Both the position numbers and the translations under genes were made by a program. Positions 13,097-21,624 of a stretch of 34,050 nt of DNA are shown piece by piece. Within the stretch, counting starts at the first letter, position 1. Every line of letters begins with the position of its first letter. Source of the stretch: Rhodothermia bacterium (GTDB lineage Bacteria; Bacteroidota; Rhodothermia; Rhodothermales; JAAAOL01); the NCBI GenBank assembly GCA_030428385.1, contig JAUIDY010000067.1, positions 1 through 34,050 on the forward strand, read 5' to 3'. The notes beneath the pieces are model-generated. The model saw nothing but the letters and a program-made list of their open reading frames with translations, had not been told where the DNA came from and made no database searches.

Positions 13097-14254
13097 ATGC
13101 CTTTTCGCCTTCCTACCCGTCTCTGGCTTGTCCCAGGCTCGCTCCAGCATCTGCCTGAAGTAGCAGTGTCCTACGGGCATCAGCGCACCCTGCTTGTCTA
13201 TGATGAAGGGATTTCACACACGCCGTGGCCCGAACAGGTGACGGCACTTCTGATGAAAGCCTCGCTCGACGTGGTGCCTTTTTCCGAGATTGAGCCGAAC
13301 CCCCGCCATACCACCGTTGATGCCCTTTCCGAGATGGCACGCGCCGAAAAGATTCAGCAAGTGGTAGGCCTGGGCGGTGGCAGCGTGCTGGATGCTGCCA
13401 AGGCCGTAGCCATGCTGGTTTCTAACCCGGGTTCCTGCGTGGCCTATGAAGGCAAGGAACGCTTTTCAGAGCCTCCCGCACCCTTCATCGCCATTCCAAC
13501 AACCTGCGGCACGGGGTCAGAAGTGACGTGGGTTTGTGTCATTTCCCATTCGGACGAGGCACGCAAGATGAGCATCAAAGGCACAGGCATGTTTCCGAAC
13601 GCCGCGCTGGTGGATGCCGACCTGCTTCAAACCCTTCCTGCCCACTTGGTGGCCTATACCGGCATGGACGCCCTCACGCATGCCCTGGAAGCCTATGTGT
13701 GCCGCGTCCACAACCCCGTCTCCGATGCCCTCGCAGAAAAAGCCATCACCCTACTGCTGCGTTACCTCAAGCGGGCCGTCGCCCAGATCGCGCACGACGC
13801 CGAGGCCCGCGAAGCCGTGATGCGTGCTTCCACGCTAGCAGGCATGGCCTTCGGCAACGCCGACGTGGCCTCGGTGCATTGCCTTTCCGAAACACTCGGT
13901 GGAAAATGGGACCTCCCGCACGGGCTGTGCAATGCGATCTTGCTCGTGCCCGTCTTGCGCTATCAGTTCGACGCCATCACCCCCCGCCTCGCCCAACTCT
14001 ACCACGAGGTGGTAAATCCCTATTTGCAGCCCGAAGCAGCAGCGGCGGAAGCCATGCTGGAAGTCATCGAAACGCTGGCTCATGCCCTCGACCTGCCGTC
14101 CTTTAGCACCTTTCAGATACCCCAATCCGCGTATGCGTCGATTGCTGAGGGAGCCGTGCAAAACAACTCCAACGTGTCTTCACCCCAGCAGATGACATCC
14201 GACGATTATCTAGCGATCCTGAACCTCCTGCTTCGCAGGGGTACTCATCCGTGA
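13097..14254 (+). CDS. Iron-containing alcohol dehydrogenase
   Basis: This is a group III, NAD(P)-dependent dehydrogenase of 385 residues. The nucleotide-binding loop is GLGGGSVLDAAKA, followed by the phosphate-contact sequence IPTTCGTGSEVT. The metal ligands are Asp191 and His195 (GMDALTHALEAY), His261 (VHCLSETLGG) and His275 (PHGLCNA). The 14-residue spacing of the last two matches the Zymomonas ADH2 layout. All four ligands are present, so the enzyme should be active on an alcohol, aldehyde or ketone. The substrate cannot be read from sequence. ATG 13097 follows a poly-T-rich, SD-less leader. Confidence 0.92.
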   Translation: MPFRLPTRLWLVPGSLQHLPEVAVSYGHQRTLLVYDEGISHTPWPEQVTALLMKASLDVVPFSEIEPNPRHTTVDALSEMARAEKIQQVVGLGGGSVLDAAKAVAMLVSNPGSCVAYEGKERFSEPPAPFIAIPTTCGTGSEVTWVCVISHSDEARKMSIKGTGMFPNAALVDADLLQTLPAHLVAYTGMDALTHALEAYVCRVHNPVSDALAEKAITLLLRYLKRAVAQIAHDAEAREAVMRASTLAGMAFGNADVASVHCLSETLGGKWDLPHGLCNAILLVPVLRYQFDAITPRLAQLYHEVVNPYLQPEAAAAEAMLEVIETLAHALDLPSFSTFQIPQSAYASIAEGAVQNNSNVSSPQQMTSDDYLAILNLLLRRGTHP

Positions 14255-14471: not shown

Positions 14472-14555
14472 AAGGCAGCTATGGGGATAGCACATCATGC
14501 CTTTTTGATGGTAGGGAGCGCCGGCGTTCTGAGGCGGACGTCGGCGCATTTTTTT
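14472..14555 (+). ncRNA. Candidate small RNA ending at a strong terminator
   Basis: Two hairpins lie in tandem with no reading frame of note. The first has an outer stem AAGGCA (14472-14477) with TGCCTT (14498-14503) and an inner stem GCTAT / ATAGC closing a GGGG tetraloop (14483-14486). The second is the GC-rich terminator at 14518-14555. Together with the dyad upstream this looks like a short independent transcript of about 90-100 nt. The 5' end is a guess, and no Rfam-type family was recognised. Confidence 0.35.
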
Positions 14556-15265: not shown

Positions 15266-17314
15266 ATGCCCCTACCTGCGTCTTTTCTTATTGCTGCCGG
15301 GACCGCTCCCGTTTTTTTCTCTGAAATTGCGGTCTTGCTGGTGGTGAGCGCGCTCGTCGCCTACGTGTGCCACCGCCTCGGCATCATGCCTATTGTCAGT
15401 TTCCTGATTGCGGGGGCGCTCATCGGGCCGCATGCGCTGGGGGTAGTGCAAGACGAAGCGTTGATTGAGGCCGCCGCCGAAGTGGGGGTCATCCTGCTCC
15501 TGTTCACCATCGGGATTGAGTTTAGCCTGGAAAAGCTGGCGCGCATCAAGCGGCTCATCTTCATCGGCGGCGGCTTGCAGGTGGTGCTGGTAGTGGCCAT
15601 CGTTACGGGCCTGTTGCGGCTATTTGAGGTCGGCTGGGCGGCCAGCATCTTCACCGGGTTTCTGGTGGCGCTGTCCTCCACCGCCATCGTGATGAAGCTG
15701 CTGATGGACCGGGGAGAAACCAATACGGCAGGGGGCCAGGGAGCCCTGGGCGTGCTCATTTTTCAAGACCTCGCGGTGGTGGCGATGGTGCTGCTCGTCC
15801 CGATGCTGGGCGGTGAAGGCGGCACCTCGCTGGACCTGGCCATCGCGCTGGGCAAAGCGGTGGGTATTGTGGTACTGGTACTGGTGGTGGCGCGACGGGT
15901 GATGCCCAAAGTACTCGAAGCCGTGGCGCGGACTTGCTCACAGGAAATCTTCCTGCTCACGGTGGTAGCCATCTGTTTTGGAACGGCGTGGCTGACGAGT
16001 TTGGCGGGCGTAAGCCTTTCATTGGGTGCCTTTTTGGCGGGGCTAGTCATCAGCGAAAGCCGATTCAGTGAGATGGCGTTCGGCGAAATCCTTCCGCTAC
16101 AAATCCTGTTTAGCGCCACGTTTTTTGTCTCTGTCGGGCTCCTGCTAGACCTCGGCTTTCTCATCGCCAACCCACTGTTGATCCTCGCCATCATTGGTGG
16201 CGTGCTGGTGCTCAAGGTGCTAACGACCTTCCTCAGCATCAAGGTACTTCGTTACACGACGGGCACGGCGGCATTTACGGGGCTTATGCTCGCCCAGGTG
16301 GGCGAGTTTTCATTTGTGCTGGAACGGGCGGGCCGCGAGGTGGGACTCTTCCCCGCAGGTATCGAAAACGGCGGGCCGCAGGCGTTTATCGCCGCCACGG
16401 TGGTGCTGATGATCGCCACCCCTTTCCTCGCCACTCTTGGTGAGCGGCTGCGTGCCCGGTTTGCCCAGAAGGCCAAAGATGCGGCCACCAAAGAAGCCAT
16501 GGAAACAGCCGATGAAGCCCCCGCACACGGTGCCATTCGCGATCATGTTATCATCGCTGGATATGGCGAGGCCGGGCGCAAAATTGCCCGGGTGCTACAG
16601 GCCCGCGACATTCCGTATTGCATCGTCACCCTCAGCCCCGAGGGCGCCCGCGAAGCCGAGGCGGCGGGCCTGCACGTCATCAGCGGCAACTACACGCGCC
16701 AGCACGAATTAACCCTCGCTGGGGTGCGACACGCACGGCTCTTGCTCGTGGCCGACGACGACCTGGAAACCACGCTGCGGGTGGTTCGGTCGGCCCATGT
16801 ACTCAACCCTGGCCTGCGGGTGATGGCCAGCACGCGGTTTGAAGAAGAAATCGAAGAGTTGCAGGAAGCCGGTGCTTCGGATGCGGTGGCTGAAGAACAG
16901 GAAAGCATCGTTCGCCTCCTCACCTGTGTACTCGAAGCCTACGACATTGCGCCGGAGCATGTACGCAACCACCAGCAGGCACTTCGCGCCCACCAACACG
17001 CGGCTCTGAACTTCGCCACGCGGAAATCAACGTACGAGCTTAGCGATGCGCAACAACAAACGTCAAAATGCGCCCACACCGACCAGACCCAGATCGTCAC
17101 GCCCAGCGCATTTGGCTGTGAGGAATGTTTGGAGATGGGCGATACGTGGGTGCACTTACGCATCTGCATGACGTGCGGGCACGTGGGCTGCTGCGACTCG
17201 TCGAAAAACAAGCACGCCACCAAACACCACCACGCCACCGATCACCCGATTGTGATGTCGTTTGAGCCGGGCGAAGAATGGGCGTGGTGTTATGAAGACC
17301 GCACGACGTTTTAA
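15266..17314 (+). CDS. Kef-type K+/H+ antiporter (CPA2) with RCK domain and C-terminal UBP zinc finger
   Basis: This is an inner-membrane monovalent cation:proton antiporter of 682 residues. Residues 20-400 form about a dozen hydrophobic helices with KefB/C motifs such as GHRLG-type LGIMPIVSFLIAGALIGP and GVILLLFTIGIEFS. An RCK/TrkA-N Rossmann domain follows at about 424-545 (HVIIAGYGEAGRKIARVL). The last 80 residues are a UBP-type zinc finger: C602-x-H604, C618-x2-C621, C634-x2-C637, H639, C642, H650, H654-H656 and H660. Kef proteins release K+ and acidify the cytoplasm during electrophile stress. The zinc finger is the domain that binds ubiquitin C-termini in eukaryotes, and its bacterial ligand is unknown. 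It heads a cluster with a kinase, a regulator-flavoprotein and an aldo/keto reductase. Confidence 0.9.
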   Translation: MPLPASFLIAAGTAPVFFSEIAVLLVVSALVAYVCHRLGIMPIVSFLIAGALIGPHALGVVQDEALIEAAAEVGVILLLFTIGIEFSLEKLARIKRLIFIGGGLQVVLVVAIVTGLLRLFEVGWAASIFTGFLVALSSTAIVMKLLMDRGETNTAGGQGALGVLIFQDLAVVAMVLLVPMLGGEGGTSLDLAIALGKAVGIVVLVLVVARRVMPKVLEAVARTCSQEIFLLTVVAICFGTAWLTSLAGVSLSLGAFLAGLVISESRFSEMAFGEILPLQILFSATFFVSVGLLLDLGFLIANPLLILAIIGGVLVLKVLTTFLSIKVLRYTTGTAAFTGLMLAQVGEFSFVLERAGREVGLFPAGIENGGPQAFIAATVVLMIATPFLATLGERLRARFAQKAKDAATKEAMETADEAPAHGAIRDHVIIAGYGEAGRKIARVLQARDIPYCIVTLSPEGAREAEAAGLHVISGNYTRQHELTLAGVRHARLLLVADDDLETTLRVVRSAHVLNPGLRVMASTRFEEEIEELQEAGASDAVAEEQESIVRLLTCVLEAYDIAPEHVRNHQQALRAHQHAALNFATRKSTYELSDAQQQTSKCAHTDQTQIVTPSAFGCEECLEMGDTWVHLRICMTCGHVGCCDSSKNKHATKHHHATDHPIVMSFEPGEEWAWCYEDRTTF

Positions 17315-17430
17315 ATCGTTCGGGCCCGCTGTCCTCCCTTCGCTGTTCCTCGTGAGCGGACGCACAAGTGCGCGATAATTTCGCTGCCCCTGTTGTACCT
17401 TGCCCATCCTACAATCACACGGCTCTGCCT

Positions 17431-18831
17431 ATGATATCCGTCGCCGATTTACAAACCATCACACAGCTTCATGACCTCGACGACGACGTGCTGCAGTGGT
17501 TGTCTGAGAACCTGGAAGAAGTACACCTCGAAGCCGATGAGGTATTTCTGGAAGCGGGCAGCCCCGCCGAGTGGATGTTTATCCTTTTCAAAGGCCGAAT
17601 CCGGGTTGTCGTGAAGCGGGACCTGCAGCCCTCCAGCACGTTTGTCCTCGAAACAGGCGATATCAACGGCATGCTCCCGCGTTCGCGCATGACCCACTTC
17701 CGGGGAGAATGGAGGGCCACCCAACCCACACGGCTGGGACGACTCCACGCTCAACTGTTTCCTGAAATGCAGCGCCGCTTTCCCGCGTTGGATGCACGGC
17801 TGGCCCACCTCATGCTCGACCGTACCCGTATGATTGCACGGGTGCAATTGCAGCAGGAGAAGCTGGCCTCGCTGGGAACCATGGCTGCTGGGCTCGCCCA
17901 TGAACTCAACAACCCGGCTTCGGCAGCCCGGCGGGCCGCCCAAAACCTGTGCGACACCCTGCAAGCTTTCGATGAACATGCGTCGTCGATGTTGCGCAAG
18001 ATGATGTTTAAGCACCCGAGCACTGACGGAGACCCGTTCCAACCGATTTATGCCATCACGGCCCAACCACCGCCCAACCTCGACCCGCTGGCACAGAACG
18101 AACGCGAGGATGAACTGGCCGACTGGCTGGAGGAAGAAGGAGCCGAAAACCCCTGGGATGCCGCCGCCACCCTCGTCGCCATGGGCTTCACGCAGCCGGT
18201 GCTGGCCACGTTCTCCGAAGGGCTGGTGGATGAGTACGTGGTGGACTTTCTGAACTGGCTGGCCCGCGACATGGAGATGCGCCTGCTCGCCGAAGAGCTG
18301 GCCGAAAGCACCGTTCGGATTTCCGACCTGGTGTCCGCGATGAAGTCGTATTCCTTTATGGACCAGGCCCAGGAAAAGCAGCACATCGACCTACATCAGG
18401 GCATCGACAGCACCCTCACCATTTTAAAACACAAGCTCAAGAACAAGCAGGTCGATATCGAAAAGCACTATGGCGACCTCCCGCGCGTGCCCGCGTACGG
18501 TGGCGAACTGAACCAGGTATGGACCAATCTTCTCGACAACGCCATTGCTGCCCTTCCTGTCACCAACGGACGTATCGTTATCAAAACCGCTTGCGACCTG
18601 CCCGCCTCCCAAGTACATGTTGACATTATCGATAACGGCTCGGGCATTCCCCCTGATGTGCAAAACCGCATCTTCGAACCCTTTTTCACCACCAAAGAAG
18701 CAGGCGAAGGAACCGGTCTTGGACTCGATATTGTCTACCGCATTGTTACGGCGCGTCACGGGGGCACCATCCAGGTGACCTCGGAACCGGGCAACACCCG
18801 GTTTCACCTCCAGCTACCATTAGAATCCTGA
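17431..18831 (+). CDS. Sensor histidine kinase with CAP_ED-like N-terminal domain
   Basis: This is a soluble kinase of 466 residues without membrane segments. The N-terminal 10-110 region folds like a cyclic-nucleotide-binding CAP_ED barrel (FLEAGSPAEWMFILFKGRIRV). The phosphate-binding cassette is replaced by GDINGMLPRSRMTHF, so cNMP binding is doubtful. The H-box is LGTMAAGLAHELNNP (His157). The ATPase has an N-box NLLDNAIAALP, G1 DNGSGIP, and G2 GTGLGLDIVYRIV. ATG 17431 is used because an upstream GTG at 17368 adds 21 residues of non-domain sequence. The response-regulator fusion gene starts 43 bp after the stop and is the obvious phosphotransfer partner. Confidence 0.9.
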   Translation: MISVADLQTITQLHDLDDDVLQWLSENLEEVHLEADEVFLEAGSPAEWMFILFKGRIRVVVKRDLQPSSTFVLETGDINGMLPRSRMTHFRGEWRATQPTRLGRLHAQLFPEMQRRFPALDARLAHLMLDRTRMIARVQLQQEKLASLGTMAAGLAHELNNPASAARRAAQNLCDTLQAFDEHASSMLRKMMFKHPSTDGDPFQPIYAITAQPPPNLDPLAQNEREDELADWLEEEGAENPWDAAATLVAMGFTQPVLATFSEGLVDEYVVDFLNWLARDMEMRLLAEELAESTVRISDLVSAMKSYSFMDQAQEKQHIDLHQGIDSTLTILKHKLKNKQVDIEKHYGDLPRVPAYGGELNQVWTNLLDNAIAALPVTNGRIVIKTACDLPASQVHVDIIDNGSGIPPDVQNRIFEPFFTTKEAGEGTGLGLDIVYRIVTARHGGTIQVTSEPGNTRFHLQLPLES

Positions 18832-18874
18832 CCCCACCTTGCCCTGCCTGTTCTGATCGAACACCCTTTGCCTC

Positions 18875-20533
18875 ATGACCAAACCCGCCATTCTCGCCGT
18901 TGATGATGACCCGCAGGTGCTTCGGGCTATTGCCCGCGACCTGCGCCGCCGTTACAGCGACACCTATCGCATTCTCCGGGCTGGTTCTGCCCAGGAAGGC
19001 CTGGAAGTCACCGACACCTTGAAGGATCGGGGCGACCCGGTGGCGCTTTTTCTGTCGGATCAACGCATGCCCCAGATGGACGGCGTGGGATTTCTCAGCG
19101 AGGCGATGCTGCGGTTTCCCCGCGCCAAACGGGCCCTGCTGACAGCCTACGCCGACACCGAAGCCGCCATCGCCGCCATCAACCGCTCGCAGATCGACTA
19201 TTACCTGCTGAAGCCCTGGGATCCGCCCGACCAAAAATTGTATCCTATCCTCGACGACCTGCTGGCCGACTGGCAAGCGGGGTACCGCCCTGGTTTTGGG
19301 GGCTTGCGGGTGGTGGGCGACCGCTGGTCTGCGCAGTCGCACACGATCAAGGACTTTTTGGCCCGGAACCAGATTCCGTACACGTTCCTGGATATTGAAT
19401 CCAGCGACGAAGCCCGCGACATCGTGCAGAAGGCATCCGAAAACGGCGCGACTTTGCCGGTGGTGGTTTTGCCCGGCGGCGAACGCCTGATCGCGCCGAC
19501 GCCATCCGACCTCGCCACCCATGTGGGGCTTCAAACCCACGCCGAAGAACCGTTTTACGACCTCGCCATCGTGGGCGGCGGCCCGGCGGGGCTGGCCTCG
19601 GCGGTGTATGGGGCCTCCGAAGGGTTAAAAACGGTGCTGCTCGAACAGCAGGCCCCGGGCGGGCAAGCGGGCACCTCCAGCCGCATTGAAAACTACCTGG
19701 GGTTTCCCTCAGGTCTGTCGGGCGACGATTTGGCCCGCCGGGCAACAGCCCAGGCCCGCCGCTTTGGCGTTGAGATTCTGGCCCCACAATCGGTGGAAGG
19801 GTTGCGCATTGAAGGACCGTACAAGCATCTGCTGCTCAGCGATGGGAGCGAGGTGGCCTGCCACACGCTCATGCTGTCGATGGGCGTTAGCTGGCGCAAG
19901 CTCACTGCCGACGGCGCCACTCCCCTAGCTGGACGCGGCGTGTACTATGGCGCGGCGATGACCGAGGCCATGTATTGCGAGGAAGAAGAGGTTTACATCG
20001 TAGGTGCCGGTAACTCGGCAGGGCAGGCCGCCATGTTCTTCGCCGACTACGCCAAGCGGGTGGTGATGGTGGTCCGCGGCGATTCGCTGGAAGCCAAGAT
20101 GAGCCATTATCTGGTGCGGCGCATCTACGAACACGAACGCATCGACGTCCTCCTGAACACCGAAGTAAGGGCCTGCCACGGCGACGGCCACCTGGAAAAG
20201 CTGACCCTGCACAACAAGAACGACGGCACCTCCTCTGACGCAGAAAGCCGCTACCTATTTGTGTTCATCGGCGCGGCCCCGCGTACCGACTGGCTGGGCG
20301 AGGCGGTGGCCCGCGACGACCGGGGCTTTGTCCTCACCGGCCCCGACCTCGACCCGGAGCGCCACCTCAAAAGCTGGCCGCTGGAGCGGGCCCCGTTCCT
20401 GCTCGAAACCAACGTGCCCGGCATTTTCGCTTCTGGCGATGTCCGCAGCGGCTCCGTGAAGCGCGTGGCGTCGGCCGTGGGCGAAGGCTCCGTGGCCGTG
20501 TATTTCATGCACCGCTTTCTGGCATCGTTGTAG
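18875..20533 (+). CDS. Response regulator fused to thioredoxin-reductase-like flavoprotein (no CxxC)
   Basis: The 552-residue protein has three parts. Residues 1-140 are a receiver domain with acidic pocket DDD (10-12) and phospho-acceptor Asp62 (FLSDQRMPQMDG). Residues about 142-215 have a glutaredoxin/thioredoxin-like pattern (GLRVVGDRWSAQSHTIKDFL, then LPVVVLPGGERL), with Ser where redox Cys are expected. Residues 229-552 are a two-dinucleotide-domain flavoprotein with FAD loop VGGGPAGLAS, NADPH loop VGAGNSAGQAA (from 374) and FAD motif GIFASGDVR. The stretch that carries CATCDG in thioredoxin reductase reads GVYYGAAMTEAMYC, so the disulfide is absent. Phosphorylation by the neighbouring kinase may control the reductase; its substrate is unknown. 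Confidence 0.92.
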   Translation: MTKPAILAVDDDPQVLRAIARDLRRRYSDTYRILRAGSAQEGLEVTDTLKDRGDPVALFLSDQRMPQMDGVGFLSEAMLRFPRAKRALLTAYADTEAAIAAINRSQIDYYLLKPWDPPDQKLYPILDDLLADWQAGYRPGFGGLRVVGDRWSAQSHTIKDFLARNQIPYTFLDIESSDEARDIVQKASENGATLPVVVLPGGERLIAPTPSDLATHVGLQTHAEEPFYDLAIVGGGPAGLASAVYGASEGLKTVLLEQQAPGGQAGTSSRIENYLGFPSGLSGDDLARRATAQARRFGVEILAPQSVEGLRIEGPYKHLLLSDGSEVACHTLMLSMGVSWRKLTADGATPLAGRGVYYGAAMTEAMYCEEEEVYIVGAGNSAGQAAMFFADYAKRVVMVVRGDSLEAKMSHYLVRRIYEHERIDVLLNTEVRACHGDGHLEKLTLHNKNDGTSSDAESRYLFVFIGAAPRTDWLGEAVARDDRGFVLTGPDLDPERHLKSWPLERAPFLLETNVPGIFASGDVRSGSVKRVASAVGEGSVAVYFMHRFLASL

Positions 20534-20568
20534 TTCTCCATTCCTTCCCAATCTGAATTTCTTTTCTC

Positions 20569-21624
20569 ATGCGATATAAACTACTGGGCCGCAGTGGCCT
20601 GCGCGTCTCTGAACTGGCCCTGGGCACCATGACCTTCGGCGAAGAATGGGGCTGGGGCGCATCCAAAGAAGAAAGCCGCCGCATCTTCGACGCCTTTGCC
20701 GAGGCCGGGGGCACCTTCATCGACACGGCCAACCGCTACACCGAAGGCACCAGCGAGCGGTTTGTCGGCGACTTCATCGCCAGCGACCGCGACCACTTCG
20801 TCGTCGCCACCAAATACACACTGCACACGCGCCACGGCGACCCCAACTTCAGCGGCAACCATCGCAAAAACATGATGCAAGCCGTGAACGACAGCCTTAA
20901 GCGCCTCGGCACCGACTACATCGATCTGTACTGGCTGCATGTGTGGGACTTCACCACCCCCGTTGAGGAAGTGATGCGCGGGCTCGACGACTTGGTGCGG
21001 CAGGGCAAGGTGCTTTATGTGGGCATCTCCGACACGCCTGCGTGGATTGTGAGCCGCGCCAACACCCTCGCCGACTTCCGGGGCTGGTCGCCGTTTGTGG
21101 GGCTACAGCTTCGCTACAGCCTCATCGACCGCACCGCCGAGCGCGAACTGCTGCCGATGGCGCGGGCGCTGGACCTGGGCGTGACGCCGTGGAGCATCTT
21201 GGGCGCGGGCATGCTGACGGGCAAATACAACCGCGAAAACCCACCCGAAGAAGGCCGCATTGCCAAGCGGGCAGCCTCCAAAGAACGCAGCCTGAACATC
21301 GCCGAAACCGTGATTGCCGTTGCCAACGAGATTGGCTGTACGCCGTCGCAGGTAGCCATTGCGTGGGTGCGCCAACAGGCAGGGGTCATGATTCCGCTGC
21401 TGGGTGCTCGCACCCTCGCGCAACTGGAAGACAACCTCGGTGCCCTCAACGTCACCTTAAATGCGGACCACCTTGCCCAACTGGAAGAAGCCAGTGCCTT
21501 CGACCTGGGCTTTCCGCACGACTTTCACCGCCAAAAAAACATTCGCGACATCGCCTATAGTGGCACCTACGACCAGATCGATCATCATCGTCGCTACCAG
21601 AGCGGCGGACCACTAGACGAATAG
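20569..21624 (+). CDS. Aldo/keto reductase
   Basis: This is an NADPH-dependent cytoplasmic reductase of aldehydes and ketones with 351 residues, slightly long for the family because of a C-terminal extension (HHRRYQSGG). The catalytic tetrad is complete: Asp52, Tyr57 (DTANRYTEG), Lys82 (VVATKYTL) and His124 (YWLHVWD). The sequence GTMTFGEEWGWG at 19-30 suits the YajO/Tas-like subgroup. It starts 35 bp after the flavoprotein gene and is probably the last gene of that cluster. Many reductases of this type reduce methylglyoxal and other electrophiles. That would fit a Kef antiporter in the same unit, but the link is an inference. Confidence 0.92.
   Translation: MRYKLLGRSGLRVSELALGTMTFGEEWGWGASKEESRRIFDAFAEAGGTFIDTANRYTEGTSERFVGDFIASDRDHFVVATKYTLHTRHGDPNFSGNHRKNMMQAVNDSLKRLGTDYIDLYWLHVWDFTTPVEEVMRGLDDLVRQGKVLYVGISDTPAWIVSRANTLADFRGWSPFVGLQLRYSLIDRTAERELLPMARALDLGVTPWSILGAGMLTGKYNRENPPEEGRIAKRAASKERSLNIAETVIAVANEIGCTPSQVAIAWVRQQAGVMIPLLGARTLAQLEDNLGALNVTLNADHLAQLEEASAFDLGFPHDFHRQKNIRDIAYSGTYDQIDHHRRYQSGGPLDE

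Follow-up and report, generated by a model that had tools for sequence, protein, structure and literature searches.

A widespread histidine kinase, receiver-flavoprotein and UBP zinc finger module with a suggested role in bacterial electrophile stress

Results

Organization of the four-gene locus

The locus is part of a 34,050-nucleotide stretch of a Rhodothermia bacterium contig (JAUIDY010000067.1), here called the window. The layout described in the first-pass annotation was confirmed: four ORFs are located on the plus strand and, with the ATG at 17431 taken as the kinase start, the intervening gaps measure 116, 43 and 35 bp (Table 1). As an alternative kinase start, an in-frame GTG at 17368 is possible. 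Pfam assigned HATPase_c, a weak HisKA and a weak CNB domain to the kinase, and Response_reg, a Glutaredoxin-like linker just under the cut-off and Pyr_redox_2 to the flavoprotein. A hairpin scan, which provides weak evidence, detected no terminator-like site in the three intergenic gaps, and a promoter scan covering the sigma-70-like type only returned 0 sites. The aldo/keto reductase (AKR) is probably co-transcribed with the other genes in the window. Further upstream on the same strand we noticed an iron-containing alcohol dehydrogenase (13097-14254; best NCBIfam match ErcA-like, below the cut-off). Between this gene and the antiporter there is a strong terminator-like hairpin (14518-14547), followed by about 700 bp without a called gene.

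Table 1. Features of the locus, with positions in the window.
Feature	Position	Strand	Basis
KefC-like CPA2 cation/proton antiporter with TrkA_N (KTN/RCK) and C-terminal UBP zinc finger	15266..17314	+	PF00999 aa 27-383, PF02254 aa 428-541, PF02148 aa 618-680
UBP zinc-finger domain of antiporter (aa 602-678)	17069..17299	+	44-sequence profile; PF02148
Soluble histidine kinase with N-terminal CNB-like domain	17431..18831	+	ORF call; Pfam; boxes conserved, 84 homologues
Predicted phospho-accepting His of kinase (H178, GTG-start numbering)	17899..17901	+	His in 84/84 homologues
Receiver, thioredoxin-fold linker and TrxR-like flavoprotein without redox CxxC	18875..20533	+	Pfam, alignment, predicted model
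Receiver domain of flavoprotein	18890..19228	+	PF00072 aa 6-118
Phospho-acceptor Asp62 codon, flavoprotein receiver	19058..19060	+	Asp in 60/60 homologues
Degenerate thioredoxin/glutaredoxin-fold linker, S152..H156 replacing redox CxxC	19304..19525	+	PF00462 just under cut-off; model secondary structure; residue counts
Flavoprotein G359-A-A-M362, site aligned to TrxR CxxC	19949..19960	+	Alignment to 7aaw; 60 homologues
Aldo/keto reductase (AKR)	20569..21624	+	PF00248

The receiver-flavoprotein has lost the redox disulfide

By sequence and predicted structure the flavoprotein resembles thioredoxin reductase (7aaw, E 8.7e-44; 5mh4, TM 0.93 over the target for the predicted model). It shares the fold and the FAD/NAD(P)H domains (Pyr_redox_2) with bacterial thioredoxin reductase and AhpF; however, where those proteins carry the redox CxxC, a GxxM-type sequence is found in the aligned homologues of the flavoprotein. 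The CxxC of 7aaw aligns to G359-A-A-M362. G359 replaces the first Cys in 60 of 60 homologues from many phyla, and no Cys is among the commonest residues at position 362 in the same alignment. No substitute cysteine is fully conserved, the best candidate C368 being present in 46/60 homologues. The redox site of the linker reads S..H, with S152 in 56/60. Identity as a thioredoxin-disulfide reductase was rejected because the redox CxxC is missing, and the corresponding model TIGR01292 was not reached (216.5 vs a cut-off of 343.45). Having lost the disulfide of TrxR, the flavoprotein is unlikely to reduce thioredoxin. In the receiver, D10, D62 and K113 are invariant (60/60) and D11 and T90 are present in 59/60 homologues, so that by alignment the residues of phosphotransfer are intact. 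Most naturally, this is read as a protein that has retained flavin/nucleotide chemistry together with phospho-control and lost dithiol chemistry.

The receiver (REC) is not the only regulatory domain found at this position. A CNB domain is fused straight to the flavoprotein in L197, L200, L203 and L204, and an N-terminal regulator is absent in L198 and L201. The CxxC is also lost in the CNB-type, REC-less variants, which connect the sensor type of the kinase to the same flavoprotein output; thus one output is plugged into either a direct ligand domain or a kinase relay. At NCBI the CNB-type relatives are named “cyclic nucleotide-binding domain-containing thioredoxin-disulfide reductase”, a name that does not fit a protein lacking the disulfide.

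The first-pass annotation had supposed that control of such a flavoprotein by phosphorylation would be new. This goes too far. REC-TrxB proteins were already on record as an architecture (PMC5847659, PMC9953108), one of the sources being a census of response regulators that includes a fusion of REC to thioredoxin reductase (PMC5847659). The domain architecture is the same as here, but in the censuses the proteins are catalogued only, while the absence of the CxxC and the partners were identified in the present analysis. In the open-access literature we found no characterisation, and beyond the architecture listings no report of the module, of the CxxC loss, of a partnership with UBP or of the Kef/MhqO/MhqD setting.

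Linkage of kinase and flavoprotein

Scanning the collection for the flavoprotein yielded at least 591 relatives. The homologue set consists of the top-scoring members of these, with the best 80 used for linkage counts, and genes in relatives are mechanical ORF calls. Among the matches listed, relatives occur in Cyanobacteria, Actinobacteria, Acidobacteria, Chloroflexi, Deinococci, Bacteroidota, Gemmatimonadetes, Betaproteobacteria and one archaeal MAG. A kinase homologue is located on the same strand within 600 bp of the flavoprotein in 57 of these best 80 loci. It precedes the flavoprotein gene in most Bacteroidota and comes after it in most other lineages, and many loci consist of kinase and flavoprotein alone. 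On the basis of this linkage the adjacent kinase probably switches the flavoprotein.

The H-box of the kinase (GLAHELNNP) and its N and G boxes are conserved among 84 homologues (H178, N391, G424/G426, G450/G452). The CNB-like domain stays under the Pfam cut-off (20.7 vs 27.5), and only L28, L42, G57, G64, G76 and G101 are conserved at ≥80%. Sensing of cAMP by this domain was rejected because the Glu/Arg phosphate-binding cassette is not conserved.

Two further kinds of genes were seen near these loci. In several Acidobacteria (L116, L118, L141, L142) the pair of flavoprotein and kinase genes has an aldehyde dehydrogenase gene upstream of it. Genes of the LtrA (low temperature requirement A) family occur near the kinase/flavoprotein or the UBP gene in cyanobacteria, one actinobacterium and Deinococcus (L083, L115, L131, L132, L260, L311).

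Co-occurrence with a bacterial type of UBP zinc finger

The zinc finger of the antiporter scores 48.5 bits with PF02148 (gathering score 22.7) and is the only copy of this domain in the window's genome. We looked in two phyla, each sampled independently, for genomes that hold both this domain and the flavoprotein, taking E≤1e-60 for the flavoprotein and E<1e-8 for a clear zf-UBP as presence thresholds in the first set. The set for the window's phylum comprised 247 genomes, of which 35 had the flavoprotein, 25 had zf-UBP and 23 had both (Fisher p 1.6e-21; family level 4.5e-5). For 19 of the 23 genomes with both, zf-UBP is located within about 4 kb of the flavoprotein. In 198 Actinobacteria each was found in 45 genomes and both in 31 (p 5e-15). 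Except for the family-level value, these p-values ignore relatedness and are inflated by phylogenetic non-independence.

UBP and flavoprotein are often adjacent genes, and UBP genes also adjoin REC-less flavoproteins (L197, L198). In some genomes (G212, G172, G149, G254) the two are distant from each other. UBP was not found in 19 of 46 flavoprotein-bearing genomes, several of which are incomplete MAGs, affecting absence counts; the flavoprotein can therefore probably act without UBP. Neighbour association is evidence of a shared pathway and not of binding, and the loci read contained no natural fusion of flavoprotein and UBP from which direct binding could be inferred.

A 44-sequence profile defines the bacterial finger type as W-x-HLR-x-C-x2-CG-x3-CCDS..EPGE-x-W-x-WCY. 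Its best solved relative, 2ida (annotated “hypothetical protein”), is similar over the whole finger (6.9e-35) but standalone, whereas the finger in the window is fused to the antiporter. In the window protein, Cys-Asp is found where the USP49 finger has its conserved Gly-Arg, and 40 of the 44 bacterial fingers carry Asp in place of the arginine that eukaryotic ubiquitin-binding fingers have at this position. This arginine is part of the ubiquitin-tail pocket. Ubiquitin-style recognition is therefore unlikely.

The antiporter is a lineage-level partner

The antiporter contains a CPA2 membrane domain and a KTN domain, and KefC is its closest solved structure (8bxg, 2e-64); the NCBIfam KefC model scored below its cut-off (311 vs 752). 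We compared the residues contacting glutathione in KefC (PMC10224563, PMC11150392) by alignment to the solved structure, which did not cover the N551 region. R416 and R498 are kept as R442 and R524, whereas R409, Q412, F441, D499 and R516 are replaced by E, R, A, F and A. The window's genome encodes BshC (bacillithiol), and no GshB was detected in it, so a trigger role of glutathione cannot be taken for granted. With most contact residues missing as well, glutathione gating of the antiporter is disfavoured, and triggering of the KefC type by glutathione was not supported.

Within the order of the window, antiporter, kinase and flavoprotein stay together despite rearrangement, the order being flavoprotein-antiporter-kinase in L060, L061, L063, L065, L066, L071 and L073. 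UBP is fused to the antiporter in the window, in L066, L071 and L073 and in a distant Pyrinomonadaceae locus (L088); in L060, L074, L130 and L223 it has a gene of its own next to that of the antiporter. On the KefC-like antiporters L061:6573-8897 and L063:11240-13603 a C-terminal glutaredoxin domain (WC-x-LT motif, single Cys) replaces UBP; by sequence the L060 and L065 antiporters have a C-terminal glutaredoxin domain too. In the wide set (best 80 of at least 591) an antiporter was linked in 2 of the 80 loci, and linkage is mainly found in the window's own class. The antiporter is therefore a client at the level of the lineage and not part of the core.

An AKR recurs in L159 between kinase and flavoprotein, and in Deinococcus aquaticus one lies downstream of a CNB-flavoprotein at a distance of 110 bp. 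As a core member it was rejected, being only sporadic in relatives with few other loci; it is an occasional passenger. The comparison of gene neighbourhoods across genomes proposed in the first-pass annotation bears out the co-occurrence of kinase, flavoprotein and UBP in varying gene order. Of the module suggested there, kinase, regulator-flavoprotein and UBP finger stand, often together with a Kef-type antiporter, while the AKR drops out. Flavoprotein, kinase and UBP finger form a real conserved module.

Electrophile-detoxification genes in other lineages

In a Balneolales operon (L223) the module is found in the order MhqO-like, MhqD-like, antiporter, DsbA-like, UBP, kinase, flavoprotein, with gaps of 89, 70, -4, 10, -1 and 95. 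The glyoxalase-fold partner is MhqO-like (match to solved MhqO at 1.6e-68; dichlorohydroquinone dioxygenase also matched). Ktedonobacter shows the gene order WrbA-UBP-MhqO-like-MhqD-like, and its WrbA NAD(P)H:quinone oxidoreductase scores above the curated cut-off. On a Tsukamurella plasmid (NZ_LR134454.1, 5980-10641; L314) flavoprotein, kinase and UBP genes overlap by 4 bp and are followed by an S-(hydroxymethyl)mycothiol dehydrogenase; this is a compact version of the module in a mycothiol organism. The window's genome itself contains an mhqO-mhqD-like pair with a 4 bp overlap on another contig (G000:C234:3277-4904, L310), unlinked to the module.

Together with the AKR, the MhqO/MhqD, WrbA and mycothiol dehydrogenase neighbours indicate that quinone/aldehyde detoxification recurs in unrelated lineages. 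The electrophile or redox-stress context proposed at first is supported by MhqO/MhqD-like, WrbA, mycothiol-dependent formaldehyde dehydrogenase and DsbA-like neighbours and by the glutaredoxin-fused antiporter. This supports an electrophile-stress reading and not glutathione gating. MhqO- and MhqD-like proteins, which share an operon with the module in Balneolales and are encoded near its parts in other lineages, are known from the mhqNOPED/MhqR cassette of Bacillus and Staphylococcus; there the regulator is a MarR repressor, whereas in the module loci a post-translational two-component regulator-flavoprotein is nearby.

Discussion

The joint best explanation of the module membership, linkage, intact phosphotransfer residues, CxxC loss and detoxification-gene context seen in the sequences is a conserved electrophile/quinone-stress module under two-component control, which we consider reasonably probable. 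We infer every biochemical step, namely phosphotransfer, substrate, docking and direction of control. The soluble kinase with its CNB-like sensor would phosphorylate Asp62 of the flavoprotein, and phospho-D62 would change activity or docking of the disulfide-less protein. The flavoprotein would probably either hand on hydride from NAD(P)H straight to an electrophile, e.g. a quinone, or serve as a redox-state-dependent binding protein. The UBP zinc finger would be its functional partner, with recognition through the finger. As the finger in the window forms the C-terminus of a KefC-like antiporter, we propose that docking of the phospho-regulated flavoprotein on it may adjust K+/H+ exchange in a glutathione-free counterpart of the help that KefC receives from KefF; the AKR would add local carbonyl reduction.

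More tentative, though possible, is the full form of this proposal: a glutathione-independent Kef-type system in which a phospho-controlled, disulfide-less flavoprotein reads or reduces electrophiles and docks via UBP on the antiporter, or elsewhere on other partners, giving a two-component system control over ion efflux and detoxification that bypasses transcription. The comparison with KefC/KefF of E. coli is instructive here. Both systems have a CPA2 antiporter with KTN domain, an electrophile-detoxification context and an oxidoreductase flavoprotein as possible accessory, and by analogy a KefF-like ancillary role of the flavoprotein is plausible. However, KefF has an FMN quinone-reductase fold, whereas the flavoprotein here is of the TrxR-like FAD type, and receiver control and UBP finger are extra. 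Glutathione-gated K+ efflux of the KefC/KefF type with a different ancillary flavoprotein could be argued from the match to the KefC structure and the two retained arginines, but the five exchanged contact residues, undetected GshB in the presence of BshC and the low NCBIfam KefC score make it quite improbable.

A somewhat unlikely reading is general redox signalling: as an NAD(P)H/flavin redox sensor, the flavoprotein would act on the kinase or other proteins, and the antiporters and detoxification enzymes nearby would be no more than frequent co-regulated neighbours. The lost CxxC with no fully conserved replacement, the many loci with kinase and flavoprotein alone and the lineage-limited antiporter linkage would fit; the recurrence of electrophile-detoxification neighbours in unrelated lineages and the UBP-antiporter fusions do not. 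We think it very improbable that the finger binds a ubiquitin-like or C-terminal glycine tail as part of a bacterial ubiquitin-like pathway: the PF02148 fold and the Trp/Tyr of the WCY motif are kept, but the Gly-Arg position has changed, and no E1/E2-like gene was seen in the neighbourhoods inspected. That four unrelated genes share one strand by chance is extremely unlikely. The AKR is not conserved and relatives differ in gene order, as chance would predict, yet the linkage statistics and the sets of antiporter, kinase and flavoprotein that are rearranged but retained within the order already contradict it for three of the four genes.

The kinase/flavoprotein/UBP set is a widespread, uncharacterised stress module. 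If the electrophile-stress mechanism proposed above is true, it would be a rare two-component system with a metabolic flavoenzyme as output instead of transcription, and it suggests a way for bacteria without glutathione to run a Kef-like emergency response. It also offers a role that can be tested for two orphan families of wide distribution, namely the bacterial UBP zinc fingers and the REC/CNB-flavoproteins, which carry the database names “thioredoxin-disulfide reductase” or “FAD-dependent oxidoreductase”.
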